DNA from: Thraustochytrium sp. TN22
Lineage: Eukaryota > Sar > Bigyra > Thraustochytrida > Thraustochytriidae
Direction: 5' to 3'
DNA length: 64,000 bases
NCBI GenBank assembly: GCA_013306675.1
Contig: JABLUY010000123.1
Coordinates: 1 to 64,000 of the forward strand
Under the pieces are notes generated by a model. The model was not told the origin of the DNA. It saw nothing but the letters and a program-made list of their open reading frames with translations, and made no database searches. This document shows, one piece after another, positions 4,290 through 39,285 of this stretch; within the stretch, counting starts at the first letter, position 1; every line of letters begins with the position of its first letter. The position numbers were made by a program, and so were the translations under genes.

Positions 4290-7200
4290 ATGACGACGGT
4301 CTTGGTTTTCTCAGGCGTGGGGAGCGTGAGCAAGGCGACCGCCAAGGTGATCAAGCAGCTGGCGGGCGTGGAGAATGTGGAGCGCGTCCGGGAGCGCCTG
4401 GCCGCGGCCTACGAAATGAAACTGGAGGATGTTGTCGCCAAGGTGGCGGCGCTGCCGGAGGAAAATGTTGGGGGCGATCTCGGGCTGACGGCCCTCGAGG
4501 AGATCGTCGCGCAGCTCGTGGTGCAGCTCGGATCGGCGCAGGTCGTCCAGCGCGCGCTAGGTGACGAGGAGGCTGTCGTTACGGTGGGCCACAGCATCGG
4601 CGAGCTTGCGGCAGCCGCGATTGCTGGGTTCCTGACGGTCGAGGAGGCCGTCGATGTGGCTGTGCGCCTGGCGGAGGTGACGTCGCACGCCGAGGGAGGC
4701 CGCCTCGTGTTCGGCCGCCTGGGCCCGAACGACGAGGTTGCCTCCGTGAACCACATCGAGGAGGAGGATTTGGTGGTGGTGGAGGAGGGAAATGCCCCGG
4801 AGGAAAATGCCCCGGCATCGACCTCCACCAACAAGGTGGGCGCCGCCATCCGCAAGCGCGAGGACGACGATCGTGCAGTGGTGCGCACGGGCTTCGCGTG
4901 GCACGCGCAGGAGCTAGCGGGCCAGCCGTGGCAGGAGCTCGAGCTGGGAACTGGCGGCACGGCGCGCCTGCCGCTCGCTCTCTCGCTCCTGGGCGATCTA
5001 GCTGCGGCGGACCGCGCCCTGGACAACGAGTACTGGCGCTCCTGGACGCACACTGGCGTTGACCTGGCGGCCGCGCTGACGGCAGTGCGCTCCAAGTACA
5101 AGTCGATCACGCGCGTCGTGGAGCTCGGCGCCTACCCAATTTTGCGGCAGTCGCTGCGCCATGTGCTGGCCGGTGTCGAGCAGATGGCTCTTGTGGACCG
5201 GGAGCGCGGCCTGCACCTGGATGCGCGGCGCGCCATTCTGCGCACCAACGGGACCGCGCCGCTGCTGCGTGAGCTCCGCGCGGCCTTTCCGGTTGCGCTC
5301 GACGAGGACGCCTCGTGGAGCGAGAGTGGGCTCTCGAGCGCCGACCTGGTGGCGGGCGCCGCAGCCCTCCGGCGAACCGGCGCCTTCCCGGGCCTGCAAG
5401 CCCAGGACCTGTACCGGCACGTGACGCCCGAGGCGCTCCTGGCGCAGGCCGTGGGCCCTTTTTCGACGAATGACGGCGTCAACTCCACGACCCAGACCAC
5501 GGCGACGCAGCAGCAGCAGCAGCAGCAGCCGCAGCGCGAGGCAGTGGTGATTCGCGCCATGAGCTGCGTGCTGCCGGCCAACATCAAGACGCCGGCGCAG
5601 CTGGCGGCCTTTGCGCAGGCGCAGGGCGACGCGGTCCGCTTTGACAGCGGCTTTGACGGCGGCAAGCGCGCCGCGGCCTTTTTGGGCGACATCACGCTGG
5701 ACTGCGCGCGCTTCGGCATCAAGGAGAGCGAGGCAAGCACCATGGACCCGCAGCAGGCGCTGGTGCTGACGTGCGTAGACAAGCTGCTGCAGGAGCACGG
5801 CATTGAGCAGCTCCCGGCCAGCACGGGCGTGTACATTGGCGCGTGGAACACGGAGTTCGAGGGTGACCGGTCCTCGGTGTTCTACCCGACGGGCACGAAC
5901 CAGAGCCTCATCGCGGCGCGCGTGAGCCACGTCTACCGTCTGCACGGTCCGTGCAAGGTGGTGAACTCGGCGTGCGCCTCGTCGCTGGAGGCGGTCCTCG
6001 AGGCCGCGCGCGACGTGGCCGAGGGCAAGGTGGAATGCGCCATTGCTGGCGGCGTGAACCTGCTCTGGGATCCAAGCTTCTCGCAGTGCATGGCGCAGTC
6101 GGGCTTCCTCGCGCCGGGCGCGCGCTGCCGCAGCTTTGATGCCTCTGCGGACGGCTACGTTCGGTCCGAGGGCTGCGGTCTCGTGCTGCTCACGCGCAAG
6201 CGCGACGCGACGCCGTACTACGCCGAAGTTCTCGGCGGCGCGTCCAACCAGAACGGTGGTCGCAGCGCCAGTATCACGGCGCCCAGCCCAATCGCCCAAG
6301 AGGAATGCATTGGGCAGGCCTTGCGCGACGCGGGCCTCGGCCCGCACGAGGTGGACTATGTCGAGTGCCATGGCACGGGTACCAAGCTGGGCGACCCGAT
6401 TGAGTGGAGCGCGCTGGCCGGTGCGCTGGGTCGTCACCGCAGCTCGAACCGACCCTGCTACCTGGCGAGCATCAAGAGCAATCTCGGCCACCTCGAGGCG
6501 GCGGCTGGCGTCGCCGGCCTCCTGCACGCCGTTATGGTGCTGGCGCGCCAGGAGGTGCCGCACATGGCCAACTTCGTGGAGGCCAACCCGCTGCTGGAGC
6601 CCTGCGACGGCCTGCGCCTCGCCACCGAGACCAACGTGCGGCCGGCAAACCCGCTCATGGTGGCCGGCGTCTCGTCCTTTGGCTTTGGCGGCAGCAACGT
6701 GCACGTGCTGCTGCGCGCCTCGCCGCAGGTGCCGGTCCCGCGCGCGCCGGTGGCGCCCAAGGACAAGACGGCGGTCTTCGTCTACGACCGTACGCAGGGC
6801 CGTCGCCGCCTCCTCGCGTCGCACCGCGAGCAGGAGCTTGAGCAGGCGCGCGCGGCGCCCATGGCCGTGCCAACGTCGCCGGCCCAGGCCGAGGTGGCCG
6901 TCATGCGGGACACCGTGCTGACGCAGACCTTTTGGGAGGTCGTGCGCGCGGTGGCAGGCGAGGTGGACCCGGCCGCGCAGATTCTGCGCAGCGGGGTGGA
7001 CTCGCTCGGCCTCACGGAGCTCTTCCTGCGCATCGAGCAGAAGCTCGGCGTCGAGGCCGCCGACCTGAGCGACTTCCTCGGCGGTGGCCACGCGTGGAAC
7101 GAGCTTTGTGCCAGAGTCATGCAGCGGGCGGGTGGTGCCCAAATGCCCGTGGTGGCGCTGCCGCCGAGGCACGCGCAGGCGCAGCCCCAGGCGCAGGCGC

Positions 7201-10200
7201 AGGCCCAGGCGCAAGCGCAGACGGCGCGCGCCCCGGCGTCCGAGCGCGAGGACGCCGCGCCGGCCCCGTTCACGTGGGCACTGCCGCGGTTCGAGCAGCT
7301 GATCCGCACGACCCACGTGGGCTCCCTGCCGCGCGCCAGGGAGCAGGAGCAGCAGTACAAGGAGCTGGACACCATCATCCAGAAGCAGCTTGCCGTGGGC
7401 ATCTCCATCATCAACGACGGCGAAGCCGGCCGCATGGACTACACGACGGCGGCGCTGACGCGCATGACGGGCTTTGAGGAGCAGGACGCCGCCACGGCAC
7501 CGCAGCCGCTCGACCTACAGGACCTCCCGTGCGTGGCGCGGCGCTTCTTGGTGCGCGCCGGCCTCATCACGCTGAACCGGTCCGTGCGCACGTGCAACCC
7601 GCACTGCACGGGCGAGGTGCGGTACACGGGCCAGCAGGCGCTGGAGCGCGAGCTGGAGACCGTGCGCCGCGCCATGCAGCGATGCAACGCGGGCCTGCCG
7701 GGCCAGGCGTTCTACTCGTCGCCTTCGCCCGGCACGCTCGCCATGTTCTTTGGCCGCAGCGAGACGCACCCGGTGTACGCGAACTACGAGGCGTACCTTG
7801 GCGCCGTGGCGGACGCCATGCGCGAGGAGTACCTGGCCATTGTCCGCCACGGCTTCACGCTGCAGGTGGACTGCCCGGACCTGGCCATGTCGCGGCACAC
7901 GCGCTTTAAGCACCTGGGCCTTGTCGCGTGGAAGCGCATCGCGGCCCTGCATGTGGACATGCTCAACCGCGCGCTCGAGGGCATTCCGCGCGAGAGCGTG
8001 CGCGTACACGTGTGCTGGGGCAACTACGCCGGCACGCACCACCGCGACGTGGGCGCTGAGCATGTGCTGCCCATCGCGCTGCGCATCCGCGCGCGTGGCT
8101 TCGGCTTCGAAACGTCCAACCACCGCCACAGCGCCGACCATGGCGCGCTGGCCGCTGCGCTCGCGCAGGCCGGCCGCGGCGGCCCGGACGACGACATTGA
8201 GCTCTACCCGGGCGTCATTGACACCTGCTCCACGAGCGTGGAGGACCCGGGCGTGGCGTGCGAGCGCATTTGCCGCGTCGCCAAGATTGTCGGCCCGCAC
8301 CGCGTCGTGGCTGGCACGGACTGCGGGTTCTCCTCGACCGCCGAGGCCCAGGGCCTGCCGGCGGAGGTCGCCTGGATGAAGCTGCGCGCGCTCGTCGCCG
8401 GCGCGCGCCAGGCGTCGCGCCTCTTCGCGCCGGAGTGCGTCCCGGCCTTTGTGCTGCGCCCGGCGCGCCGCCGCTTCCTCTTCGCGCAGGATGCGGCCTC
8501 GGCGCACGACGCGCTCGCCAAGCTGCCGCTTGACCCCGCCGTGGAGACGCGTGTCATCCTCACGGCTCCGCTGGGCGCGGACCCGGTCACGGCGGCCAAG
8601 AACGCCCGCCTGGTCGCGGCGCACGTGCGCGCCTTTGTGGATGTTCCCGTGCTCTTCGCCTCGGACGGCTCGAACGCGGCCGCCGACTTTGGCGGTCTCG
8701 TCAAGGAGCAGCTCGCGGACGGCCACGCGCTCTGCTCCCCGGCCTTCCCGCTCGACAAGGAGGACGACATCCCCGCGCTCTCGCGCGCCGACATGGAGTT
8801 CCCCACGCCGGGCGCCCCGCGCGAGCGCTACGAGGTCGTCGTGGTGGGCGCCGGCGTCGTTGGTCTCCTGGCGGCGCAACGTCTCCGCGACGAGGGCGTC
8901 GACGTGGTGCTCCTGGAGAAGGAGTCCTTTGTGGGCGGCATCTGGACGACCTTTGCGAACGCCAAGAGCCAGGTCAACAGCTCCGAGGGCTCGTACCGCC
9001 TGCTCCCGAGCTACCGCGCGCGGCCCAATCGGGACCACAGCACGACGGCCGAGGTACGCGCAGACGCGCTCACCATCGCGCGCGACCTGCGCGCTGAGGG
9101 CCGCATCTTCACCGAGACTTGCGTGCAGCGCGTGGAGCGCCCGTGCGAATCCGAGGGCGGCGAGCAGGCGCGATACCTCGTGCAGCTGGAGAGCGGCGCG
9201 GCCATCCACGCGCAGGGCGTCATCCTCGCCATCAACGACCGCGTCGGCACGCCGCGCCCGGTCACCTGGAAGCGCCGCGAGGACTTCGCCGGCATGCTCG
9301 TGGACGGCTTTGGGGGCGACGCGGAGACGCAAAAGGTTGACTGGGCCGGCAAGCGCGTCGTGGTCGTGGGCATGGGCGCCTTTGCGATCGAGAACGCGCG
9401 CACCGCGCTCGAGCACGGCGCCGCCAGCGTCGTCGTGCTCGCGCGTCGCCACGGCACCGTCTGCCCCAAGTACATTGACTACATCAACTTCGTCCACCGC
9501 GACTCCGTCGACGAGGTGGGCGACGACGTCAACGCGGCGCACAACAGCAAGAACCTCTACCTGTGGCGCCAGCTGTACGCAGCGAGCAACGCCACCGTGC
9601 CCGAGTGCTGGATGGAGCTCATCAAGCACACCGGACACACCATCAGCGTCTCGGACCTCTGGTTCGTCGGCCACCACGTCGGCAAGCTTGAGACGCACAT
9701 TGGTGAGATCGACCACTTTGAGCGCGACGGCATCGTGCTGCGCTCTGGCGACAGCATTGACGCCGATGTCGTCGTGCGCTGCACGGGCTTTGAGCGCAAC
9801 GCCAGCCTCGTGCCGCGCCTCACCCCGTACAAGACCATCTCGCCCGTTAACTACCTCGACGACAACCTCATGTACTTGGCCGACGCCTTTATCGACGACG
9901 ACGCCTTCAACTCCTTCTTCGGCTCCAGCGTTCTGGAGATGGCCAAGTTCTTCATCATGGTCTACATTCACTTTTTCCGAGGCGACGACACCGACGTCCT
10001 GCGCGACCCAGCCCTCGCTCCGGCCCTCGACGTGCACGATCGCAAGTGGACCGAGTACATTCGCGGCGCCGAGATCCTCGTCCACCGGGTCCCTGCGCTC
10101 CGCGCCAAGGCCAACGACCTCCTGCGCGCGCGTCGCGACGACTTTGTCAACGCCCAGAGCGTGGAGGACTATGTCGCCGCGAACCGCCGCGAGTGGATCG

Positions 10201-10274
10201 AGCTTCACGATATCCTTACCCAGGGCACGCTCGAGCCGTCCTGCATGCTCCCTTACCCAGACTGGAAGGCCTGA
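4290..10274 (+). CDS. Hybrid megasynthase: AT - ACP-like - KS - ACP - MetE-like - flavin monooxygenase
   Basis: A single uninterrupted 1,994-residue protein. Domains in order: an acyltransferase (about 3-320; GHSIGE with Ser102, His205 in FAWHA); an ACP-like segment (about 335-395) where SGLSSADL replaces the usual GxDSL, so Ser350 would be the carrier site; a poly-Gln linker near 405; a type I ketosynthase (about 415-830; Cys562 in NSACASS, His694 in HGTGT, His734 in NLGHLEAA); a canonical ACP with Ser905 in GVDSLGL; an Ala/Gln-rich linker; a cobalamin-independent methionine-synthase C-terminal-type domain (about 995-1385) with four zinc-ligand positions kept (His1240, Cys1242, Glu1274, Cys1345); and a class B flavin monooxygenase (about 1512-1994; GAGVVG 1520-1525 for FAD, GMGAFA 1694-1699 for NADPH, RCTGF near 1831). 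No ketoreductase, dehydratase, enoylreductase or thioesterase is visible. It probably makes a short acyl or beta-keto chain on the ACP that is then modified by thiol or methyl transfer and by oxygenation. The product is unknown. It is not the PUFA synthase, whose domain order differs. Confidence 0.88.
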   Translation: MTTVLVFSGVGSVSKATAKVIKQLAGVENVERVRERLAAAYEMKLEDVVAKVAALPEENVGGDLGLTALEEIVAQLVVQLGSAQVVQRALGDEEAVVTVGHSIGELAAAAIAGFLTVEEAVDVAVRLAEVTSHAEGGRLVFGRLGPNDEVASVNHIEEEDLVVVEEGNAPEENAPASTSTNKVGAAIRKREDDDRAVVRTGFAWHAQELAGQPWQELELGTGGTARLPLALSLLGDLAAADRALDNEYWRSWTHTGVDLAAALTAVRSKYKSITRVVELGAYPILRQSLRHVLAGVEQMALVDRERGLHLDARRAILRTNGTAPLLRELRAAFPVALDEDASWSESGLSSADLVAGAAALRRTGAFPGLQAQDLYRHVTPEALLAQAVGPFSTNDGVNSTTQTTATQQQQQQQPQREAVVIRAMSCVLPANIKTPAQLAAFAQAQGDAVRFDSGFDGGKRAAAFLGDITLDCARFGIKESEASTMDPQQALVLTCVDKLLQEHGIEQLPASTGVYIGAWNTEFEGDRSSVFYPTGTNQSLIAARVSHVYRLHGPCKVVNSACASSLEAVLEAARDVAEGKVECAIAGGVNLLWDPSFSQCMAQSGFLAPGARCRSFDASADGYVRSEGCGLVLLTRKRDATPYYAEVLGGASNQNGGRSASITAPSPIAQEECIGQALRDAGLGPHEVDYVECHGTGTKLGDPIEWSALAGALGRHRSSNRPCYLASIKSNLGHLEAAAGVAGLLHAVMVLARQEVPHMANFVEANPLLEPCDGLRLATETNVRPANPLMVAGVSSFGFGGSNVHVLLRASPQVPVPRAPVAPKDKTAVFVYDRTQGRRRLLASHREQELEQARAAPMAVPTSPAQAEVAVMRDTVLTQTFWEVVRAVAGEVDPAAQILRSGVDSLGLTELFLRIEQKLGVEAADLSDFLGGGHAWNELCARVMQRAGGAQMPVVALPPRHAQAQPQAQAQAQAQAQTARAPASEREDAAPAPFTWALPRFEQLIRTTHVGSLPRAREQEQQYKELDTIIQKQLAVGISIINDGEAGRMDYTTAALTRMTGFEEQDAATAPQPLDLQDLPCVARRFLVRAGLITLNRSVRTCNPHCTGEVRYTGQQALERELETVRRAMQRCNAGLPGQAFYSSPSPGTLAMFFGRSETHPVYANYEAYLGAVADAMREEYLAIVRHGFTLQVDCPDLAMSRHTRFKHLGLVAWKRIAALHVDMLNRALEGIPRESVRVHVCWGNYAGTHHRDVGAEHVLPIALRIRARGFGFETSNHRHSADHGALAAALAQAGRGGPDDDIELYPGVIDTCSTSVEDPGVACERICRVAKIVGPHRVVAGTDCGFSSTAEAQGLPAEVAWMKLRALVAGARQASRLFAPECVPAFVLRPARRRFLFAQDAASAHDALAKLPLDPAVETRVILTAPLGADPVTAAKNARLVAAHVRAFVDVPVLFASDGSNAAADFGGLVKEQLADGHALCSPAFPLDKEDDIPALSRADMEFPTPGAPRERYEVVVVGAGVVGLLAAQRLRDEGVDVVLLEKESFVGGIWTTFANAKSQVNSSEGSYRLLPSYRARPNRDHSTTAEVRADALTIARDLRAEGRIFTETCVQRVERPCESEGGEQARYLVQLESGAAIHAQGVILAINDRVGTPRPVTWKRREDFAGMLVDGFGGDAETQKVDWAGKRVVVVGMGAFAIENARTALEHGAASVVVLARRHGTVCPKYIDYINFVHRDSVDEVGDDVNAAHNSKNLYLWRQLYAASNATVPECWMELIKHTGHTISVSDLWFVGHHVGKLETHIGEIDHFERDGIVLRSGDSIDADVVVRCTGFERNASLVPRLTPYKTISPVNYLDDNLMYLADAFIDDDAFNSFFGSSVLEMAKFFIMVYIHFFRGDDTDVLRDPALAPALDVHDRKWTEYIRGAEILVHRVPALRAKANDLLRARRDDFVNAQSVEDYVAANRREWIELHDILTQGTLEPSCMLPYPDWKA

Positions 10275-19281: not shown

Positions 19282-19589
19282 CGCGCGCGGCGCGGCGGCG
19301 CGGCGGCGAGGGCGTCTGCCGGGCCCGAGTCCGAGGCGGCGCCGCCGCGGGAAAAGAACGCCGCCTCGGAACGCGGAACGCGTTCGTTCTCGCGGCGCGG
19401 AACGCGGCGGCGCGGCGGCGGCGCGAGGAAATTTCGAACGAGCGAGCGAGCGCGAGGCGCCGGCGCGCCAGGCCGGCCGCGCGCGCCTCGCCGCGCGCGC
19501 GCGCCCGCGCCCGCGGCAGGCAGGCAGGCAGCAGGCAGGCAGCGCAGCAGCAGCAGGCCCGCCGCCCCGCCGGGCCGCCGCGCGGCGGC
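19282..19589. promoter_or_regulatory. Shared 308-bp region between BUD13 and myotubularin starts
   Basis: The two ATGs point away from each other with 308 bases between them, so both promoters and both leaders must lie here. It is extremely GC-rich and includes a run of GGCA units near 19518-19545. No TATA-like element is seen. Confidence 0.55.
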
Positions 19590-27673: not shown

Positions 27674-29245
27674 CGCGCCGCCGCCCTGCCCGCGCTCCGC
27701 CGCCGCCCTCGCGCGCGTCCGCTCGCCGCTCTGCCGCGCGCGCTCTCCCGCGCGCGCGCCGATCGAGCCCGGCCCGCGCCGCGCTCTCCCCCACTCGCCA
27801 ACTGGCGCTTCGCCCTCTTTCGGCCCTCGCAGAGCCCACTTGCGGCCCGACTTACTCCACTGGCAGTCAGTCCCTCTTGGCGCTCGAGGTCGTGGTCAAG
27901 TCAGCGCCGGCCGTCGCCGAGTTTAGCTCGGCCAGCCAGCTGCGGCCGCGCTTGCTCCAACTTGAACTTGCTTGCTTGCTGCCCGGCAGCAGCCAGCAGG
28001 AAATGGAGCTTGCGCCTGGCTGGCGCAGTGCCTCGCGTGCCGTGCTGCGCTGTGCACCGCGCGCGCGTGCGGGCCTCGTGCAGCGCAGCTGGCGCCCGAG
28101 CCGCGCGTGCTTTACGGCCTGGCAGCCAGCTGGGAAGCCTCGGCCAGCTGGATTTTGAATTGATCGTCCAAGTCCGAGTCCGAGTCCGCGCGTCCGAGCG
28201 CGAGTCCGCGGCTCTCCGTGCCTGCAGTGCCTGCGTGCCAAGCCTCGCGGCCCGCCGGCCGACCGACCTGCCCTGCCCCTGCCAGGGCCTGCCAGGCAGC
28301 TGCCGGGGCTGGGCGCGCGCCGCGCCCCGTGTCTGCCAGCAGGCTCCCTCCCTCAAGTTCCTGCACGGCACCGGCAGCGGCGGCTCCGTCCGCGCGGCGC
28401 TGGCGCGCCTGGCCGAGCGCGCGCGAGCCGCCACCGCGTTGCTCGCGGAGCCTTGCGAGCTTCCTGCCCGCCCGCCCGCCCGCCTGCCTCGCGAGCTCGC
28501 GCCGCGCTCGTTGCGAATTTGCTGCAGTGCCGCCTTCCCGCGGAGAGCGGCCTGGCGGAGGGCCTGAGAGCGCGCGAGAGAAATTCAAATCCACGACCCG
28601 GAGCGGAGGCCGCTCTGGTCAGGCTGGCTGCTGGCTCGATCGCCGGCGGGCTGCAGTGCCAGTGGCTGGCGGGCTGCCGTCGCCGCCGTGCGCAGCCCCG
28701 CTCGCATGCGGCAGGCCAGCCGGTGCCAGCTAGCTAGCTAGAGCGAGCTCGCCGCCCGGACGCGCGTCTTCAATTTGAGCGACCCAGGAAGAGAGGAAAA
28801 GCACAGCTCGTGACAGCTAGCTGTGCCAGTCTCACGACTCGGAGCGCGCAAGCTGGCGGCTTGGTCGACCACCGTCGCCGCGGCGCTCGCTCAGCTGGCG
28901 CTCGGTGCTCACGGCGCTCGCCGCCGCTCCTGAGGCAAGTTCTCGGCAAGGCGGCAGGCAATGCACGACGTGGGTCCTACGACGGCGCTCTCAGCCTGAC
29001 GCAGGCCAGCCTGAGCTCCGGCGCTGGAAAGGGCCCAGCTGCTGCCTCCTGCTGCGGCCACGGCTCAGAGGCTTCCTCCGGGCCAGTGCTGCTGCACAAG
29101 TCCTCGAGCTCCAGCTGGTCCAGCTGCCACTGCCAAGGTGGCCATTGGCATGGAGCCTCGCTGCAGCCAACCTGAGCCCGGGCCCGGGCCTACCTGACAG
29201 TGACGTGACAGTCGCCAACCGCCGCGCCGCTCGCGCGCGGGCAGC
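27674..29245. other. 1.57-kb divergent intergenic region
   Basis: Lies between the kinase and SET-protein starts, which point away from each other. Overlapping open frames on both strands are composition-driven and lack any domain. Notable sequence: cccg/cctg runs at 28470-28495, gctagctagctag near 28728-28741, and several gccagctgg-type E-box-like repeats. No gene is supported. Confidence 0.45.
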
Positions 29246-30544
29246 ATGGACGCGGGAGCGGCCGAGACGGCGGCGGTGACGCCGCCGCTTGCGCCGCCTC
29301 CGCAGCCACCTGCGCAACCGGCGCCACAGCCGGCCACGCCGCCAGCTCCGCAGCAGCAGCAGCAGCAGCAGCAGCCCGGCATCCTGGCCTCGGTCTTCAG
29401 CGCCGAGCAGACCACGACGAGCAAGAGCGCGAGCCAAGCGCAGATGGGGGACGGCAAGGTGCGCGTGGGCGCGTCAGGCATCCCGGGCGCCGGCCAGGGG
29501 CTCTTCGCCGCGGAAGACCTGGGCGCCGACGAGGTAGTGGCCGAGTATGCGGGACGCATCCTCTCGCTCGCGCAGGCCAAGGCACTCGTGGACCGCACCT
29601 ACCTCAAGGCCGTGACCCTGAACCGCCACATCGACGCAGGCGGGCCAGAGGGCTCAGTGGCCAAGTACATCAACGACCACCTGGACCGCTCGCGCCATAA
29701 CGTGCGCTTCTGCAAGACCGGCAATCAGATCTTCGTGCGCACCACGCGGCCCGTAGCCAAAGACGAGGAGCTCTTCATCGACTACGGCCGCGGCCACTGG
29801 CTCTTCGGCGGCAGCGCCGCCTTCCTCGGGCTCCAGGTCGTTTCCGACGACGCGCGCTTCCCGCAGCGCCGCGTGCTCAAGGCGTCGCGCCCGCTCGCGG
29901 CGCACGAGGTCATCTGCTGCCTCGACTCGCCAGCCATGGCCGACGCCGACCGCCTCGGCGAGGCCGTGGTCTTTGCCACCACCGCGCATAGCCCCGACGC
30001 CAACTGCCGCCTCAAGCCCAGCCCCTTTGTCAAAAACACCACCATGGTCACGTCCACGCGTGCCATCGCGCCGGGCGAGGCCATCGTCGTGCGTGCCGAG
30101 GACCGCCTTGCAGTGCGCGTCTCGTCCTGCCCGGGCGCCGGCATGGGCGCCTTCGCGCGCGACGCGCTCGAGCCTGGCGACTCCCTCGGCTTCTACGAGG
30201 GCGCCCGCGTCGAGGGTCGCACGGCCCGTGACCAGGCGCTAGCTGCCAAGAAGGCACCCAGCGCGCTCCCGTACCTGCTGCGTCTCGACCTAGACGCAAC
30301 CACGCCGCCGGGCGACGACACCGTCTTCGTCGACCCCACCGACGAACACGGCCGTCTCATTCCCTTTCGCACCCCACACGTCTGCTTCGTAGTGCGCCAC
30401 GCCGACGCGGCCGCCGCAAACTGCGCGCTGCGCCTCGCGGACGACGCTTCCTCCTCTGACGCGCTCCAGGTCGTTGTCACTGCGCACGTGCCGCGGGGTC
30501 ACGAGGTGTTTCTCGCGGCCCCCGCGCTCCCGCCTCTCCAATAG
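29246..30544 (+). CDS. Protein with three tandem SET-like modules
   Basis: 432 residues. After a 60-residue Pro/Gln-rich leader (poly-Q of nine), three modules follow. Module 1 (about 70-186) is a recognisable SET domain: VRVGASGIPGAGQGLFAAEDL, then EYAGRILS, YINDHLDRSRHNVRF (the NHxxxPN-like position reads NDHLDRS) and EELFIDYG. Module 2 (about 196-287) keeps the outline (VLKASRPLAAHEVICCLDS, HSPDANCRL, AIAPGEAIVV) but has lost the start and end motifs. Module 3 (about 290-429) again starts VRVSSCPGAGMGAFARDAL and ends VPRGHEVFLAA without the DY motif. SET proteins methylate lysines on histones or other proteins. Only module 1 keeps enough motifs for activity, and its NH motif is altered. 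Modules 2 and 3 may be structural. The start is the first ATG after GC-rich leader sequence. Confidence 0.75.
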   Translation: MDAGAAETAAVTPPLAPPPQPPAQPAPQPATPPAPQQQQQQQQPGILASVFSAEQTTTSKSASQAQMGDGKVRVGASGIPGAGQGLFAAEDLGADEVVAEYAGRILSLAQAKALVDRTYLKAVTLNRHIDAGGPEGSVAKYINDHLDRSRHNVRFCKTGNQIFVRTTRPVAKDEELFIDYGRGHWLFGGSAAFLGLQVVSDDARFPQRRVLKASRPLAAHEVICCLDSPAMADADRLGEAVVFATTAHSPDANCRLKPSPFVKNTTMVTSTRAIAPGEAIVVRAEDRLAVRVSSCPGAGMGAFARDALEPGDSLGFYEGARVEGRTARDQALAAKKAPSALPYLLRLDLDATTPPGDDTVFVDPTDEHGRLIPFRTPHVCFVVRHADAAAANCALRLADDASSSDALQVVVTAHVPRGHEVFLAAPALPPLQ

Positions 30545-30836
30545 AATGGCCGACGAAAATGTGTCGCCTCGGTCCGTCGCAAGAGGGACTCGCGAGCGAG
30601 CTTGGAGCTCGCCTCGCTCCTCAGGCTGGACTGAAAACAAAATCTGTGACATGATTTTTCCTGTTTTGCGCGCGAGGCTCTTTACTGCTCGTGCGAGACG
30701 CCGAGTGCTCCGCTCCGCACGTTCTGGCCTGGTTGGCCTGCCTTATCCTGCGGCGCAGGCAAACCTCGACCACCGTGTACAGGCTTCACTCGCTCTCTCG
30801 CTCTCTCGCTTGCTCGTTCGTTCTCGCTCGCTTTTG

Positions 30837-31511
30837 CTAAAAGAGCCCCTTGGCCTTCTTCAAGGTGTCGCGCTTCCACTTGGGCTGAGCGCTAAAGTCG
30901 CTGCGCGACATGCCAAAGGTCTTGCGGAACTCGTCCTCCGTCAGGTACTCATCGAGGCGCCGCGGGTCCGCGTTCGGGACCTGCTTATTCAGCACCTGGT
31001 CCAGGGTGTACGACGGCGTCGGCGCCGGCCCTGACGGCGAGCTTGCGCTGCTCAGCGCCGCGCTGGCCGCGCTCGTGGCCATGCCCCGCGCCTCTGGCGA
31101 CTGCGCCGCCTTCATCATCAAGTTCCGGCCCTCGGATGATTGCGCCGCTTTCATCATCATGGCGCGGCCCTCCGGGGACTGCGCGGCGGCGGCCGCGCCG
31201 CCGGGCGAGGTGGCGGCCTGCATCATCAGCTTGCGGCCCTCGGGCGACCGCGCCGCGTCCATGGCCAAGGCGCGCGCCTCCGGCGACTGCGCTGCGTTTG
31301 ACATGAACGCACGACCGGATGCCGATGACGCGGCAGCATGCGCCGCGGACCCAAGCCCAGGAGCCGCAGGCCGCGCCGACGGCCGCCGCTCCGGAATTTG
31401 CGGTCGCGCCGGCACAGCCCCGCTCGTCGACTGAGGAGCCTGTTGTCGCATGGATAGCCTGCTCGCGAGCTCATTCGCCATTGCTGAGGCACCATCTGGC
31501 TGCTGATGATA

Positions 31512-31542
<31 letters not shown>

Positions 31543-32890
31543 GAGCTGCCCCAGCCAGTCGCAGCAGACGATTCATCGTCGCTCCCGCCAAAGGCCGACT
31601 CATACGATGACGTGGATGCCGCAGCGGCCCGCCGCGGCGCAGGTACTGGCGCTGGCGCAGGCGCAGGTGCGGGCGCAGGCGGCGGCGGCGGCGGCGGCGG
31701 CGCCGAGACCTCCGGCTCGGGCCGCTCCCACTGTGTCAGGTTCTTCTTCTCGTTCCAGTAATACACCTCGCCCTGCTCCGTCTTGACCTCCTGCCACCCG
31801 TCTGGCAGACCCCCGGTTGTGCCGCTGGTGCTGCTGCTTTCCCCGGGCGCAGTGTACGGCGTAGCGTATGGAACCGAATTGCTGTCGACGCCAAAGTTGC
31901 TGCCGTAGCCGCTGCCGTAGCCACCCGTTTTAGCTGCCGAGGCCGTCTCGTAGGACGCCGCCGGGTAGGCGTCCATGGTGGGGCCCAGCGACGCGGAGTC
32001 GTCCTCGTAATACGCCTCGTTGTGCGGCACGCTCAGGTCATCGTAGCCGGCGTCCACAAACTCCTGCTGCAGCGACCCGGTACGGCTGTCGCGGTACTCA
32101 AAGTCCGGCGTCTTGGAGTGCGTCACGACGCGCAGCGTGTTGTACAGCAGGCGCAGGTCCTCATTCTCTGGCGGCGCCACGGCGCCCGTCAGAATCGCCG
32201 TGGGCGAGCACTTTTGCCCATAGAACTTGGCGTTGTCCGAGTCGCGCGCCACCAGGATCGCGCCCTGCAGCGTCAGCCCGGCGAAGACGCCGCGGCTGTG
32301 ACTGTAGCTGTAGCATGCGGCGATGCCGCCGTCGCCCGCATTCACGGCCGCGTCCGCATCGCGACCCACAGGCCCAGCCGCCACCGAGATGTTGCCGCCG
32401 AACTTGATTTGGCCTCTCCCGGAGAACGCCTTGACCGCCATGTGCGTGTTCAGGATGATGACCGAGTCCGTCAGCGTGCCGCCCACCTGGAGGCCCCAGC
32501 CCATGCCGCCGACGCCCAGCGACGACGGCCCCGACCAGCTGCCGTCCTCCAGCTTGGCGATCACGATGCCGCTTCCCAGCGTACCCGAGAACACGAAGCC
32601 GGCCTTGATCTGCGTCACGAAAGCGATGCCCTTGGCCTGCTGCAGCACCTTGAGCGGGATGCCTTGGTCCGCCTTGAGGAACTGCGGGTTCACCAGCCTG
32701 TGCGTGCATTGGTCAGTCACCCTGCCAGCATGCGCGCGCGAGCGCCAGCCAGCTCGCCTGCGCGCAAACCCGTCTGCCGGCATGCGCGCGAGACCGCCCG
32801 CGCGGCCACGTACTTGAGCATCACCTTGTACGCCTTGTGGATCTGGCCCTTCATCGTCAGCCGCTCCTTGAGCTTGCCCTTGGGCGCCAT
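30837..32890 (-). CDS. SYLF (Ysc84-like) - WW - villin headpiece protein, two exons
   Basis: Spliced: exon 1 is 32814-32890, the intron is 32698-32813 (116 nt, GTACGT to CACAG, phase 2), and exon 2 is 30837-32697, giving 645 residues. Splicing restores the SYLF N-terminus (AYKVMLK joined to LVNPQFLKAD). The SYLF domain (about 1-218; GIAFVTQIKAGFVFSGTLGSG, SYSHSRGVFAGLTLQG) binds phosphoinositide membranes and, in yeast Ysc84 and human SH3YL1, acts with cortical actin. A WW domain (about 321-349, LPDGWQEVKT to TQWERP) binds Pro-rich ligands. A Pro/Ala linker and a poly-Gln run follow, then at about 491-572 a ladder of SPEGRxMMxAAQ-type repeats. The C-terminus (about 588-645, LTEDEFRKTFGM to LKKAKGLF) is a villin headpiece, an F-actin-binding module, complete with its conserved KKxKGLF ending. 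The protein probably links membrane phosphoinositides to actin, as inferred from its domains. Confidence 0.9.
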
Positions 32891-33122
32891 GGTGCTCGGC
32901 TGCGCGGGCTGCGCGGGCTGCGCGGGCTGCGCCGCCGCTTCCCCGCGCGCCTCCGGCCCCGTGCCGCCTCCGCCGCGCGACCTGCGCCGGCCCGAGGACT
33001 GCGCGCGAAAGCCTGCGAAGATACGGTTCTGCAGGAGCTCGTCACTGATCAGGCCCGCCTCACGAGTCACGACGACGCAAAGCTCGAACTCCAGCCAGCA
33101 CCCGCGCCGCCCAGGCCATGGG

Positions 33123-34061
33123 ATGCGGCTCGTGATCGAGCCGTCGCGGGAGCAGGCCGGCGCCCTGGCGGCGGCCTACGTCGTGGAGCGCGTCACCAAG
33201 TGGTGCGAGGGCGCCAAGGAGGGCGAGGTCTTCGCGCTCTGCGCGTCGGGCCACGGCGAGGAGGCCGCGTTGCTGCTGGACGCCCTCGTGGACGCGCACC
33301 GACGCGGCGACTTCTCCTTCCGCCAGGTCGCGCTCTTCGTCGCGGACGAGCTCGTCGGCCTTGACCTTGCGCACCCGGCCTCGCAGCACGCCCTCTTCTG
33401 GCGCAGGCTCTTCCAGCACGCCGACATCCTGCGCGAGAACGTGCACGTGCTCGACGGCGCCTTGCCCACGCCCGCAGCGCGCGCGAGCGCCTGCGCCGCG
33501 TACGAGGCCGCCATCGCCCAGGCCGGCGGCCTGCAGCTCGTCCTCCTCGAGACCGACCCGGCCGCAGGACTGGCACGCAACGTCCCGGGCGCCTCGCTCT
33601 GTGGCCGCACCGCCGAGCGCGTACTCGACCTCGCCACGCGCCACCACCTGGCCCAGGCCCACTTCGCCGGCGATATCGCCGCCGTCCCGGGCACTGCGCT
33701 CACCGTCGGCCTGCAGACCATCCTGAACGCCCGCGAGGTTGTCCTGCTCTCCTCCGGGCTCGACAAGGCCCTTGCGCTCGAGCACTGCATAGAGCACCCC
33801 ATCAGCCACATGTGGCCCGCCTCTGTTCTGCAGCGCCACCCATGCGTCCTCCATATTTGCGACGAGGACGCCACCATGGAGCTCCGCGTACGCACCGTGC
33901 GCTACTTCAAGGGGCTCGCTCGCACAGCGCACCTTGAAAGTCTCGACGCGCCAGCGCATCTTACCAAGGAGCCGTCGCAGCATCGTCTACGGCGTGAGCA
34001 AAGTGAACAAGCGATCAGCGAACAAGCGACCGGCCAAGCGAGTGCCAGCGACCACTTCTGA
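33123..34061 (+). CDS. NagB-fold protein (glucosamine-6-phosphate deaminase-like) lacking catalytic residues
   Basis: 312 residues from the ATG at 33123, starting MRLVIEPS as in NagB. Similarity to glucosamine-6-phosphate deaminase/isomerase runs through the length: FRQVALFVADELVGLDLAHPAS, ALTVGLQTILNAREVVLL, HMWPASVLQRHPCVLHICDE and TMELRVRTVRYFKGL. However, the NagB active-site loop GxxGHIAFNE aligns without gaps to ETDPAAGLARNV here, so the Asp, His and Glu are Ala147, Gly149 and Val154. The phosphate-loop TGGTP is replaced by ASGHG. The ring-opening base Asp (Asp75) and the Lys of the DKAL segment remain. It is therefore probably a pseudoenzyme or a member with changed chemistry. The last 40 residues (Gln/Ser/Glu-rich) are extra. 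It sits head to head with the SYLF gene, 232 bases apart. Confidence 0.82.
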   Translation: MRLVIEPSREQAGALAAAYVVERVTKWCEGAKEGEVFALCASGHGEEAALLLDALVDAHRRGDFSFRQVALFVADELVGLDLAHPASQHALFWRRLFQHADILRENVHVLDGALPTPAARASACAAYEAAIAQAGGLQLVLLETDPAAGLARNVPGASLCGRTAERVLDLATRHHLAQAHFAGDIAAVPGTALTVGLQTILNAREVVLLSSGLDKALALEHCIEHPISHMWPASVLQRHPCVLHICDEDATMELRVRTVRYFKGLARTAHLESLDAPAHLTKEPSQHRLRREQSEQAISEQATGQASASDHF

Positions 34062-34101
34062 CTCCCAGACAGCGCGAGAACGAAGCTTGCACAGACCTTG
34101 C

Positions 34102-34243
34102 AGAGTCCCTGCCGGGGGATGACGCCCATGAGCTGTGTGCGTCTTGAAATGGAGTCGGGTACACGTGCGAGCACGAAAACAGACAGACTTTGTCGTCACT
34201 TATAAGAGTCCCTGCCGAGGGATGACGCCCGTGAGCTGTGTGC
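34102..34243. repeat. 39-bp direct repeat, two copies
   Basis: Copies at 34102-34140 and 34205-34243 begin agagtccctgccg and end gagctgtgtgc, differing at two positions, separated by 64 bases. They lie between the NagB-like stop and the kinase stop, two convergent genes, so they may sit in overlapping 3' ends. No known RNA family was recognised. Confidence 0.85.
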
Positions 34244-34333
34244 AAGGGTTGAGAATCTATTTCATGGTGCCTGTTGTTACCACGTTACAATACAAAAGAT
34301 GTACACACGAAAAAAGCAGCGCCCAGTCTACGT

Positions 34334-36774
34334 CTACATGGTCACGCAGCGGCTCTCGGGCGGCGACGCTGGCGTGATGGGCGAGTCCGGCGCGTCCGCA
34401 GCGTGCGCCACGGCGGAAGTGAGGTCACCGACGGTGAGTCCGGGTGGCCCATTGTTGGCACCGGACGGCTCATCGTCGGCAACGACTGGCCCATCGTCGG
34501 CAACGACTGACCGGTCCTCGGCACCCACTGGCCCGTCGTCGGCGCCGTAGTCATCTGGCGCCAGCCCGTCGTCAGGCGCAGTAAGTCTCTCGTTGGCGCC
34601 ATGACGTTCGCCTGCACCATCGCCAGGTACCACCACCGAGGAAGTGGGCAGAGTGTCGGCCGATGCGCGGCGGCCCTGGCTACTGCCGCGGCGGCCCGGC
34701 TCGGCCTCGGTGCTCCAACGACGACCGCGCTGCACCACCGGGTGGCGAAGCACCCGGGGTGGAGGGCGCGGCTGCGCGCAGAGCCACGGGTGCTGGCGCG
34801 CCTGCTCCGGCGTGAGCCGCAGGGCAGGGTCCGCCACAAGCACGCGCGCGAGAAAGTCCCGCGCGGACTCGGACACGTCCAAGGTTGACACATCAACCTC
34901 GCAGCGGCGGTTGGCCAAGAGCGTGGCGCCCGTATCGCCGCGCTGAAAGGGCTCACGGCCGCACAGGAGCGTCCACACGAGGACCCCGACGGAGAACATG
35001 TCGACGTTTGCCGGGTACTGGTCGCCCTGGCGGCACGCCAGAACCTCGGGCGCCACATAGCCTGGGGTGCCGCAGCGGCCAGTCAGCTTGCCGTCGCGGT
35101 CCACAAAGGTGGCCATTCCAAAGTCGATGAGGCGCAGACCGGCGCGCAGCTCGAAGGGACTCAGGTACTTGAAGCGCTCACCGCGGCCGCGCACAAGAGC
35201 GACGTTGGACAGCTTGAGGTCGCGGTGCGCGACGCGGTAGTGCTGCAGGTACTGGAGGATGCGCACGAGCGCGATGGCGACGTCAGCGGCGCGCGGCTCC
35301 GCGAAGCGGCGGCCGGGCGAGGTGCGCAGCAGCTCGTGCAGGTTGCGGCGATCCATGAGCTCCATCTCAATCACAAAGAGTGCCTGCGTCTCGAAGACGC
35401 GCAAAATGGGCACGCAGCCGAGGTCGCGACCCGTTGCGACCATGCGGTCCGTGAGGTAGGTCTGGGTACTAATCTCGCGCGCCAGCGCGCGCGCGCGCTC
35501 CTTGCCCATGGCGATGAGCTCAAAATAGTCACTCTTGTTGACCACCTTGACCGCACTGCGGCGACCGTCGCTCGACCGCGTGCACTCGTGCACCTCGGCG
35601 TAGCGGCCCACGCCGAGGCGTTCGTCGACGTTGATCGAGTAAAGGTCCGCGATACGCAGCGAGGCGTTGGCAGCAATCTGTGCGCGCCATTGCTGCACGT
35701 CCTGGCCCGCCAGCGGCCGCAGCTCGACCACCACGACCTCGGCCGCGGCAGACCGCGCAAAATGGTCCTCGGGGGCCAGGTCCCCCGTCGAGCTGAACGA
35801 CGCCAGGCCCGGCTGGAACCGCCGCGGCCCGCGCCCCTGCGGGCCAAGGCCCGGGCTGCGGCTCAGGCTGCGGCTCGGCCTCCCACCGAGGTCATTAGCG
35901 CCGCCGCCACCGCCGCCGCCACCGCTGCTGCTGCTGCTACTGTTTGGGTCGTCCCCTCGCGCGCCGGCGGCCATGGCGGCCATGGCAGCGCGCGCGTGCT
36001 GCGACGCGCTCGCTGACTCGTCCACGCTACCTGCCACGGCGTGTTGGCGCCGCAGGTTCGCCACGCCGGCCGCCATGGTCTCCGGGGACCGCGCGCACAG
36101 GGAGGAGGGCGCCGCGGTCTTGGTGGCCGCCTTGATCTCGAACGAGAGCAGCAGCGAGCCGGCCGTGGTGACGCTCGTCATGACCTCGGCCAGCGCCACG
36201 TACGCCAAGGGCGCCGGGTCCTTGCGCGAGTCGTACTCGAAGAGGAAGTTTTCCGTCAGCACGAAGAAGCGCTTGTGCCAGGCGGATGACCCGTGGCCCG
36301 CCGCAAGCCGCGCACGGAAGTGGCCTTTGAGCACGTGCGGCGACGCCTCAAAGAGCCGCCGCACGGCGCGCTGGTGCACGGCGTCGCCCACCAAGAGCGA
36401 CGCGGGCCCGATCCACCGCGCGTCCGAGCCGCGGCTCAGGTCCGGCATGCGCCGTAGCGCGCGCCACGGCTCGGGCCGCTCCGCAAACTCGTACGAGAAC
36501 AGCGAGCCGCCGCTCACGCTGGGGCCCGCCGCGCGGAGCATCATCGGCCGCGACGCCTTGCGCGGCAGCGCCTGGCTCGGGGACGCCGGCGGCCGCTGCG
36601 TACCGCGGGCCCCGCCCGGCACGGGCGCCGGCACAGCCAGGGCTAGCGACGCCGTCTCGCCGGCGCTCAGCGAGGAGTCTGACGCCGACGAGCTCAGTTC
36701 GCTCTCGCCACCCGCGCCAGCGGCCGTGGTGCCTTGACCGCCTCGGCCGCGGCTTCCAGCCTCGACGTCGTCAC

Positions 36775-36805
<31 letters not shown>

Positions 36806-37603
36806 TCCGCCTCCGCCCGCGTGTGCGCTTCTTGCGTCCTCGTCCAAATCGAGCCCGCTCACCTCGCCCAGGCCGGGCTCGCTTGCCTCGCCGCCCTCGA
36901 GCTCAAAGAGAAAGCCGCCCGCGCCCCCCAGGGGCGGGCTGCTCGTGTCGCCGCGCCGCGCGCCCGTCGCGGACCCTTCGCCGGGCGGACCAGCGCGCGG
37001 GCTCCAAATCTCATGCGGCCGTCCCGCACTGCCGTCCGTGGCGCAGCTGTCGCCCTCCAGGAGTGTGGCCACCAGCCGAGCGGGCGCGCCGTCGTCGTCG
37101 TCGCCGACGCCGACGCCGCCGACGCCCTCATTGTCCTCCAGGCCCACCAACGCCCCGCCCACTACGCTGCTGCTGCTCGCGGCGCCGCCGGCAGGAGACG
37201 CGCCGTTGTCACCCAAGGTAGCGCCAAGGGTGCCGTCGTGACCGCGACTTGCGGCGGTCGTCGCGCCGGTCCTCCAGCGCAGGTGGCGCTCCAGCTCGCG
37301 CTGGTCCATGGCCCAGAGCCTCCAGCGCGCATTCTGCACGCGGCGCTTAAACCTTGAGCGGCTGCGCTCATCATTGACGGACGTCTTGGGCGTCGTGGAC
37401 CTCGCCAGCGACACGAGCAGCCCCCTGCGCCACTGGCCGACCTCCAGCATGCGCAGGCGCGCCGCGCGCTGCTGCGTGGCCGTCGCGGCGGCCGCGGCGT
37501 CCGTGGCCAGCTCGCGTTCTCTCGCGGCGGCCTCCAGCTCCTGCCACAGCCCCAGCTGCGCCTGCTCCACCTCCTGCACGACGTGGTCCGCCTGCATCAG
37601 CAT
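34334..37603 (-). CDS. PH-domain serine/threonine protein kinase
   Basis: 1,089 residues from the ATG at 37603; the frame is open 81 codons further to a TTG through Arg/Gly/Ala repeats. A basic coiled segment (about 1-110) and a long Gly/Ser/Asp-rich linker precede a PH domain that begins near 423 (WHKRFFVLTENFLFEYD) and ends near 648 (QQWRAQIAANASLRI). An insertion of about 130 low-complexity residues splits it. The kinase domain (about 651-938) has the Gly loop LGVGRYAEVHE, AVKVVNK, HRDLKLSN, DFG and GTPGYVAPEVLA, most like the CAMK/AGC side of the kinome. The C-terminal 120 residues contain degenerate ADDGPV-type acidic repeats. PH domains bring such kinases to phosphoinositide membranes, which would link it to the myotubularin gene only by theme. 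All catalytic residues are present. Confidence 0.9.
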
Positions 37604-37802
37604 CGCGCCTGCGCGCCCGCGCCCGCGCGCGGGAGGCCTCTCGCGCGCGACGCCCGCCGGGTCGGGGCCGGACCGCGCCGCGCGGGCTGGCCTGGCCTGG
37701 CCTGGCCTGGGCTGGCCTGGCCTGGCCTGGCCTCGCCGCCGCGCGCGCGGCCGCCGCGCGCCGCGCCGCCCCGCCGCGCGCGCCGCCGCGCCGCGCGCCG
37801 CC

Positions 37803-37836
<34 letters not shown>

Positions 37837-39285
37837 GCGCGGCCAACTTTGATTTGCTCGCGGCGGCGCGGTGCTCGGGCGAGGCCGCCTGGCACTGGCA
37901 GGCAGCAGCTTCAAGTTCAAGTTGAGCAGAACAGAATTTCCCCCCTGCCTCCGAGTCTTCAGGTTCCTCGCGGTCTTGGAGTTCTCCGCCCCGCGCACGA
38001 CCGGGGCGCGACTGCGCGGGGCGCGCGCGCGCCGGGGCGGCGCTCGAGCTCTCCTGGCCTGCCGCCGCCTCCCCGGATTCGACGCTTGGCTTGAGAGCGC
38101 GGCGAATGGGGTGCCGGCCGGCAGAGGGCGCGTTTGAAATTGTCGTTGCGGTGCCGCGCGGGCGAGGCAGTGCTCGACCCCGGCGAGGGCTTCACGCCAC
38201 ACGGCGGAGACTGGCCGGCCGACGCGCGAGCGAGCACGGCGAGGAAAGACGTCGGCCAGAGCGTGGTTCATGTTGTGCTCGCAGGTCTGCTGCTTTGGAG
38301 AACTCACGACTTCACAGTCAAGCCCGCTTCCGTGTGGGTTTTGCTTCGTGGTGTGCAGTGGCGGGCGGATGGCTGGATCACAAGACAGACCGTGGCGTGC
38401 TTGTCAGATCAGAGAGTCGAGCCTTTCGCTAACATAAATCAGTGGGCACGCGGGCCACGCCGGTGGCGCTGGGGCGGGGAGCTCACTCTGGCTGTAGCAT
38501 AGTGCCAGTGAGCGGCCTCAGCTCACTCAGTGGCAGGTCACGGTCGGCACACTTGACAGCGAGCTACGAGGGACTCGGAGCGTCACGAGCCGGGCCGGGC
38601 CTGACTGTGAGTTTGAGTCCGAGTCGAGGCCCGTCCGATTCGGTCCGAACACTCACGGCCAGGCTCTGTGCCTGCCTCCCGGGCCGCGCTGATGGCACCC
38701 TCGTCCGTCGCAGAAAACTTGCCTCCGCCTCCCAATGCTCCCAATCTGCATCCGCTCACTCTGCTGCAAAACGATGGCGATGACAAAGAAGACAGCCTCA
38801 GCTTGCCCGGCCTGCCAGCCTGCGTCTGCTAAGCTGCTTGCTCTGCGGCGGATGATACTTCCCCTTCCGAATCCCTCGTCTGGCGACGGTCGGCGACCCT
38901 GGCGCTGCGACCCTAAACGCAAACCACGGCACGAGGCGCAGCGCGCGAGTTTCCACGCGCGAGGCGACGGGCAGCCCTTGTCGCTGCACGGCAGCGGCGC
39001 GTGCCCCGCCCCTTCGATGTCCATCGTGCCCTGGTGCGCGCCGGGGACTCGCGCTCGACGGCGCAAAAGTACACGCGGCGGCCGCCGCGGTGCCGAGCCG
39101 AGGGCTGCCAAGGCGCCGGCGGCGCGCCGCCGGCACGCCCGCCCGCCCTCTGTAATCCCCCCTCCGTGGCGCGGCGCAGCGCAGCGCGGCGCGTGGCTCG
39201 CTCGCGCGCGCGGCGCGCGCGGCTCGCTCGCAGAGCTGGAGAGGCGGGCTTTGGACGCTGCGCAGCGCGGCGACCCACGGCAACC
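37604..39285. other. 1.68-kb divergent intergenic region
   Basis: Lies between the PH-kinase and PqiA-like starts. It has a ggcct-based pentanucleotide run at about 37687-37733, a (gcc)n run at about 37800-37836 and cgcg-rich DNA, then more ordinary sequence at 38.3-38.9 kb. ORFs such as 38735-39376 have Cys and Arg but no domain. No supported gene is seen. Confidence 0.45.

Follow-up and report, generated by a model that had tools for sequence, protein, structure and literature searches.

A thraustochytrid AT-ACP-KS-ACP-MetE-flavoprotein megasynthase is the single-chain form of a bacterial three-gene module and a tentative candidate for a B12-independent methionine synthase

A single-chain megasynthase in the Thraustochytrium genome

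The window analyzed here is a stretch of 64,000 nucleotides from Thraustochytrium sp. TN22 (contig JABLUY010000123.1, positions 1 to 64,000), and its subject is a forward-strand gene at 4290..10274, which encodes a megasynthase of 1,994 amino acids with the domain order acyltransferase (AT), acyl carrier protein (ACP), ketosynthase (KS), ACP, MetE-like domain and flavoprotein. An uninterrupted open reading frame (ORF) of this length had been predicted at this position from the sequence alone, and it proved to be real and complete. The frame is open from 4164 (TTG) through 10274. The protein start MTTVLVFSGVGS aligns with MTSVLVFSGVGS of the Hondaea relative P0002, and this N-terminal agreement indicates that the start at ATG 4290 is correct. 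The nearest among the matches listed was a 1,999-residue protein of the thraustochytrid Hondaea fermentalgiana, with 65% identity across the full length of the query. Long ORFs arise frequently by chance in this window (61–73% GC), as illustrated by antisense frames of 772 and 932 residues; thus, the length of the ORF is by itself no proof of a gene, and the proof is the full-length homology.

The gene is present as a single copy in its own genome (37.9 Mb, 453 contigs), where 12 other, weaker matches correspond to ketosynthase or flavoprotein stretches elsewhere. The full-length homologues and the single copy rule out a chance ORF or a misassembly. Bacterial contamination of the window was also ruled out, because the neighboring ORFs are eukaryotic (Bud13, SET, kinases, LCAT, villin headpiece), and a viral origin was rejected because viral contigs, scanned with three queries (the window protein, P0008 and alignment A6), yielded no relative.

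Fused relatives in protists

A full-length search, in which 8,000 candidates were scored, gave 3,893 matches. Among 120 of these 3,893, 23 carried both the MetE and the flavoprotein motif, and 24 carried at least one of them. Twenty relatives spanning all parts were aligned with the window protein, which gave 21 full-length fused sequences; P0006, P0007, P0024 and P0026 were omitted as partial or lacking the AT motif. Counting homologues with the same domain order had been proposed as a check on the original prediction, and these 20 relatives, one of them (P0015) an MMETSP entry, exclude the assembly artefact that it had named as a risk.

The fused relatives fall into three groups. Four are thraustochytrid-like (P0002–P0005, 53–68% identity). 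Five (P0008–P0012) come from an A+T-rich lineage with contigs of up to 246 kb and, in the tree described below, cluster with the thraustochytrid-like forms; for this form, no relative was found in viral contigs (scans with P0008 and alignment A6), nor in genome contigs when P0012 was used as the query. The remaining eleven include the dinoflagellate sequences P0017 (Polarella), P0018 (Effrenium), P0022 (a symbB gene model) and P0023 (Symbiodinium CCMP2592), together with P0015, whose taxid is Pedinellales sp. CCMP2098. Since MMETSP, the source of P0015, is a transcriptome project, this entry indicates one continuous transcript in a relative.

The unfused counterpart is a bacterial three-gene module

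Profile searches with the flavoprotein and MetE pieces revealed free proteins of ~610 and ~380 residues, respectively, some of which are named Desulfobacteraceae, Deltaproteobacteria or Spirochaetales, and in several cases a pair of the two came from contigs of equal length; these searches covered proteins of 0.55–1.75 times the query length, a range in which a free MetE-flavoprotein of ~850–1,090 residues could be missed. When the flavoprotein profile was then run against bacterial and archaeal genomes, 12 loci emerged, eight with Desulfo- names, three from Delta(proteobacteria) and one from a 'Proteobacteria bacterium'. In ten of them, a polyketide synthase (PKS) gene (~920–995 residues), a MetE-like gene and a flavoprotein gene adjoin in the domain order of the protist protein. 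These ten are all of the uncut loci, as the sequence ends near the flavoprotein gene in the other two (L007 and L010). The MetE gene lies on the same strand in six of the ten and is reversed in four. Two loci show local irregularities: the PKS frame of L006 (L006:4213-6922) is broken into ORFs of 805 and 107 residues, and a peptidase-like ORF of 167 residues separates the PKS and MetE genes of L012. The PKS of L001 shows AT, KS and ACP2 by Pfam and is 33% identical to the window protein (949 aligned positions); the value for L004 is 32%. The protist gene is thus the natural single-chain form of a bacterial three-gene module composed of a mini-PKS (AT-ACP-KS-ACP), a core MetE-like protein and a flavoprotein. 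The concern that homologues might always exist as separate proteins therefore applies to the bacteria found, which have three neighboring genes, and not to the protists, which have a single chain.

Few other features are common to these loci. Families were compared by BLAST at 1e-10 with half-length overlap, under which divergent neighbors may escape, and the comparison returned opposite-strand shadow ORFs, generic ABC-transporter ATPases (4/12: L006, L007, L009, L010) and an alpha/beta hydrolase (2/12). The hydrolase gene stands immediately before the PKS gene (L005:4808-5575 and L009:4895-5692) and is a possible chain-release helper. In L001, a LysE-type exporter gene precedes the module (L001:4415-5047) and a transposase gene follows it (L001:11888-13279).

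A tree of the 21 fused sequences and nine concatenated bacterial sets (quick LG search, SH-aLRT support only) separated the fused from the unfused forms by a single branch with full support; each of the three fused groups likewise lies on one side of a branch. A single fusion event is sufficient to explain this tree, and we infer that the protists acquired the module from bacteria. In a sample of the phylum of G001, one of the host genomes, the flavoprotein profile (E ≤ 1e-60) matched 1 of 395, namely G001 itself, which means that the module is rare or that the sample is distant.

Domain organization and conserved residues

The predicted order AT-ACP-KS-ACP-MetE-flavoprotein was borne out by Pfam and NCBIfam models as well as by the full-length relatives (Table 1). 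Residues are numbered from ATG 4290, and residue counts refer to 30 sequences (21 fused and nine bacterial sets); L006 was excluded from the counts and the tree owing to its split PKS frame, and L007 and L010 end before the PKS and MetE genes.

Table 1 Domains of the megasynthase in the window and the conservation of their key residues
Feature	Position	Strand	Residues and evidence
AT	4305..5186	+	6-299, Pfam PF00698; Ser102 and His205 in 30/30
ACP1	5292..5444	+	~335-385, weak match; Ser350 in 30/30; NCBIfam Pks13 model covers ACP-KS
KS	5538..6848	+	417-853, Pfam; Cys562 in 30/30, His694 in 29/30, His734 in 30/30
ACP2	6924..7058	+	879-923, Pfam; Ser905 in 27/30
MetE-like	7287..8489	+	~1000-1400, NCBIfam PRK06233/PRK06520; without N-terminal folate-binding half
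Linker	8490..8822	+	partial match to the ~130-residue N-terminal extension of free bacterial flavoproteins
FAD/NAD(P) flavoprotein	8823..10271	+	~1512-1994, Pfam and PDB profile search; CzcO/FMO/BVMO-like without fingerprints

The residue set of a type I PKS (KS Cys-His-His, AT Ser-His, ACP Ser) is present. The KS residue His694 is absent in one fused row, and the serine of ACP2, which is Ser905 as predicted, falls in a gap in the remaining three rows, all bacterial (3/9). ACP1 is the weakest call: in the window slice it scored an E-value of 0.0095, under the Pfam cut-off, and it was detected at E ≤ 0.05 in 10/10 slices, four of which, the window's own not among them, exceed the curated cut-off.

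Malonyl-loading ATs have a conserved carboxylate-binding arginine. At the position aligned with this residue, which was assigned from weak alignments, arginine occurs in 6/30 sequences (2/21 fused, including the window's, and 4/9 bacterial), and one of the 21 fused members also matches the SAT starter-transacylase model in Pfam. These patterns suggest that the AT may load a non-malonyl starter. An initial reading that the AT lacks the malonyl arginine was softened, given the arginine at the aligned position in the window and in some bacteria.

Statements on published work, here and below, refer to the parts of each paper available to us. In the MetE-like domain, the zinc ligands His1240, Cys1242, Glu1274 and Cys1345 and the homocysteine-site residues Ser1012, Glu1045 and Asp1194 are conserved in 30/30. 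The ligands were mapped against 1ypx and 3rpd, the Ser and Glu against plant MetE, and the Asp against 2nq5; the roles of the zinc and of the three homocysteine-contact residues are taken from Price et al. 2021 (PMC7857596). In a profile search, the best-scoring solved relatives of this part proved to be methionine synthases of the B12-independent type, among them 1ypx, 3rpd and plant MetE. Pfam PF01717 detects it in 15/21 fused members, the window's own not included, and the megasynthase does not show the canonical two-domain MetE layout (PF08267 plus PF01717). The expected catalytic residues of the AT, ACPs, KS and zinc/homocysteine site are therefore intact.

The linker is poorly conserved (7–15% identity to bacterial sequences). 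In the flavoprotein, the FAD and NADP glycines are kept in 30/30, and the top-scoring solved relatives in the PDB profile search are Baeyer-Villiger enzymes; the longest span among 60 of 161 PDB matches belongs to 8odw, named as a PKS-module protein (profile positions 134–451). Type I Baeyer-Villiger monooxygenases (BVMOs) and class B flavin monooxygenases (FMOs) carry the fingerprints FxGxxxHxxx[WYF] and [AG]GxWxxxx[FY]P[GM]xxxD. Each was found in 0/30 sequences. The domain had been predicted to be a flavin monooxygenase; an FAD/NAD(P) flavoprotein domain it is, and the call of a monooxygenase is weak. Among 25 of 27 Pfam families for the 21 fused members, no reductive, methyltransferase or thioesterase family was found.

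Relation to described genes and enzymes

A gene of this type is already in print. In Schizochytrium, Ma et al. 2022 (PMC9734096) reported a gene termed 'MetE-like' that comprises AT, KS, MetE and CzcO parts, so the earlier view that no pathway with this order had been described, and that the system was new, no longer holds. The two genes, compared by description rather than by sequence, agree in having AT, KS, MetE and a CzcO-type flavoprotein in one gene, in their thraustochytrid hosts and in four named zinc ligands. They differ in that ACPs, the three-gene relatives in bacteria and the relatives in dinoflagellates are absent from the available parts of the paper, which assign the gene a role in the regulation of eicosapentaenoic acid (EPA). 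The AT and KS trees there hold Schizochytrium, Aurantiochytrium and several bacteria, and no three-gene relatives are mentioned in those parts. According to the authors, the MetE domain of this gene is the only one in the Schizochytrium genome. Its transcript rises at 15 °C and increases 4.21-fold without cobalamin; in the latter condition, it falls by 36.2% with methionine and by 49.5% with methionine and riboflavin, as we interpret the order of the treatments (PMC9734096).

A probable relative is 'MetE-fusion', a methionine synthase from Phaeocystis antarctica that works without B12 (Rao et al. 2024, as cited by others). The name MetE-fusion is used in PMC12478193, and high expression of a B12-independent methionine synthase is reported for Phaeocystis in the Southern Ocean (PMC12480563); metE was found in none of 19 haptophytes in PMC6557843. 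Another point of comparison is the group of folate-free core methionine synthases MesA–MesD, in which MesD, represented by 3rpd, requires MesX and oxygen (Price et al. 2021, PMC7857596). Like these enzymes, the MetE-like domain lacks the folate domain and keeps the zinc and homocysteine residues, and MesD too requires a partner protein, as well as oxygen. Unlike here, where the partners are a PKS and a CzcO-like flavoprotein, the partner of MesD is a DUF1852 protein, and MesD is reported from aerobes only.

Three PKS types were also compared. As in Pks13-type enzymes, the KS is flanked by two ACPs, and the ACP-KS core matches the NCBIfam Pks13 model (8.7e-96, far below the model's cut-off); unlike Pks13-type and single-module type I PKSs, the AT is N-terminal, no thioesterase was seen, and MetE and flavoprotein parts are present instead. 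The hallmarks of polyunsaturated fatty acid (PUFA) synthases are ketoreductase (KR) and dehydratase (DH) domains and tandem ACPs, and no KR or DH was found among the same 25 of 27 families in the 21 fused members. Separate long KS-bearing frames do lie elsewhere in the Thraustochytrium genome, and those on contig C124 probably encode a PUFA synthase. The same genome also holds a 5,691-residue open frame with four ketosynthase matches (contig C410, ~29127-40130, minus strand), a large uninterrupted PKS-like gene. Finally, the sulfonium PKS of the gonyol/dimethylsulfoniopropionate (DMSP) type (BurA), which presumably combines a DMSP-loading adenylation domain with a KR, was rejected, as neither the adenylation nor the KR domain was found in Pfam scans.

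Overall, we file the megasynthase with the core methionine synthase/MetE-fusion kind. Within a limited coverage, to which Rao et al. 2024, Lin et al. 2022 and PMC11122798 (which mentions MetE-like) did not belong, neither the bacterial three-gene module nor the analysis of conserved residues nor the hypothesis on the methyl donor set out below was found in print.

A possible role in B12-independent methionine synthesis

Many marine protists are limited by the supply of B12, and some of them live without it. In the protein family described here, a carrier system of the polyketide type is tied to methionine metabolism that is independent of B12. We give a probability of about 40% to the reading that the megasynthase is a B12- and folate-independent, homocysteine-methylating 'core' methionine synthase whose methyl group is supplied by its PKS and flavoprotein parts. 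This reading is drawn from the retained zinc and homocysteine residues, the lack of a folate half, the way the Schizochytrium gene responds to B12 and the compactness of the module. A precedent is the MesD/MesX pair, an O2-dependent methionine synthase that needs neither folate nor B12 (PMC7857596).

The genome of the host fits a backup role. It encodes B12-dependent MetH (PF02965, 2.4e-104), in view of which the megasynthase would be a B12-free reserve, and PF08267, the N-terminal/folate half of canonical MetE, has no match across this genome. PF01717 likewise gave 0 matches, though the MetE-like domain is present; as it misses the megasynthase's own MetE, this model is too insensitive to exclude other divergent copies. 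Among the bacterial hosts, the module's MetE is the sole PF01717 or PF02574 match in 2/12 (G006 and G009).

Several observations weigh against this reading. PF02574 is found in 8/12 bacterial hosts and short PF02965 matches in 5/9, so most of these hosts would be independent of the module for methionine. G006 and G009 are metagenome-assembled genomes of unknown completeness, in which the absence of MetH is weak evidence, and TIGR02082 gave partial corrinoid/pterin matches in 7/7 genomes tested (none above the cut-off, the strongest in G006), which makes split MetH systems possible. Desulfo- lineages are known as sulfate reducers, and the Desulfo- names of 8/12 hosts argue against an O2 step; cytochrome bd, present in 9/9 hosts tested, makes contact with O2 plausible. 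The missing BVMO/FMO fingerprints leave oxygen insertion unproven. The B12 response is documented in a single paper and at the transcript level only, and the final biomass of Schizochytrium without cobalamin was far lower despite the gene (PMC9734096). Moreover, more than 90% of surveyed dinoflagellates require B12 (PMC3476827), yet dinoflagellates carry relatives of the gene, and a title in the reference list of PMC11439496 puts the blame on incomplete or absent metE genes.

If the megasynthase is a methionine synthase, the PKS and flavoprotein would make or present a methyl donor in place of the methyl-folate used by MetE. No chain-processing or release domain was seen, and we accordingly propose that no polyketide ever leaves the polyketide part; the lack of such families is as expected for a product that leaves as a free amino acid. 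One speculative scheme, to which we attach a low probability, is an acetate-to-methyl cycle, with the module acquired from marine Desulfobacterota-type bacteria. Here, the AT would load acetyl onto ACP1, and the KS would join it to malonyl on ACP2 to give acetoacetyl-ACP2. The flavoprotein would then convert the terminal CH3-CO into the O-methyl ester of malonyl-ACP2, whose methyl group would be taken by the zinc-bound homocysteine thiolate, yielding methionine and malonyl-ACP2 for reuse in the next round. Each turn would split acetyl into methyl and CO2 (net: acetyl + O2 + NADPH + homocysteine -> methionine + CO2). The cycle accounts for every domain; its insertion of oxygen is at odds with the lack of BVMO fingerprints and sits poorly with sulfate-reducing hosts. 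If true, it would be a new route to a biological methyl donor outside folate, cobalamin, S-adenosylmethionine and betaine. The bacterial version offers separate, smaller proteins for reconstitution, which makes the methyl donor directly testable.

In the main rival, the product is a small sulfur metabolite or a lipid. One beta-ketoacyl unit would be built by the mini-PKS, a thiol (homocysteine or one like it) activated by the zinc domain would attack or release the chain, and the flavoprotein would oxidize the product. The intact AT, KS and two ACPs are reminiscent of an assembly line, the zinc fold is known to activate thiols, 8odw is a PKS-module protein by name, and some bacterial loci have a hydrolase gene adjoining (L005, L009) or an exporter gene near (L001) the PKS gene. 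However, the fused chain shows no release or reductive domain, no gene of either kind is common to most bacterial loci (whose neighbors were domain-scanned in part), and the response of the Schizochytrium gene to B12 and methionine would be left unexplained; we consider this rival somewhat less probable than methionine synthesis. The chemistry suggested at the outset, transfer of a thiol or methyl group followed by oxidation, may still apply; the Schizochytrium B12 response and the retained homocysteine residues are better indications of a methionine synthase.

It is less probable again that the MetE domain uses a donor supplied by the cell (a corrinoid protein, betaine or DMSP) and that the PKS and flavoprotein serve a separate, linked pathway. 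MesA–C probably use corrinoid proteins (PMC7857596), and corrinoid-type matches are many in the bacterial hosts tested; against this, the three genes stand together in 10/10 uncut loci and form one chain in 21 full-length protist-type sequences, which suggests one reaction sequence. The proposal of Ma et al. 2022 that the protein modulates EPA release from the PUFA synthase is very improbable: EPA rose from 1.26% to 7.63% alongside the transcript on B12 withdrawal, but this is a correlation, with no knockout or overexpression found in the available parts of PMC9734096, the loss of B12 alters much else, the families common to the bacterial loci include no PUFA-synthase gene, and the AT and KS trees of the paper, as far as its available parts show, do not include the three-gene relatives found here.

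Other features of the window

The neighboring ORFs that were scanned are eukaryotic, and none is biosynthetic; several have no match. ARAGORN called tRNA-Ala at 19417-19505 and tRNA-Pro at 61053-61142 (minus strand), amid overlapping long ORFs, where such calls may be false. A 648-residue ORF at 30840-32783 (minus strand) combines Ysc84, WW and villin-headpiece domains, a combination that appears unusual.

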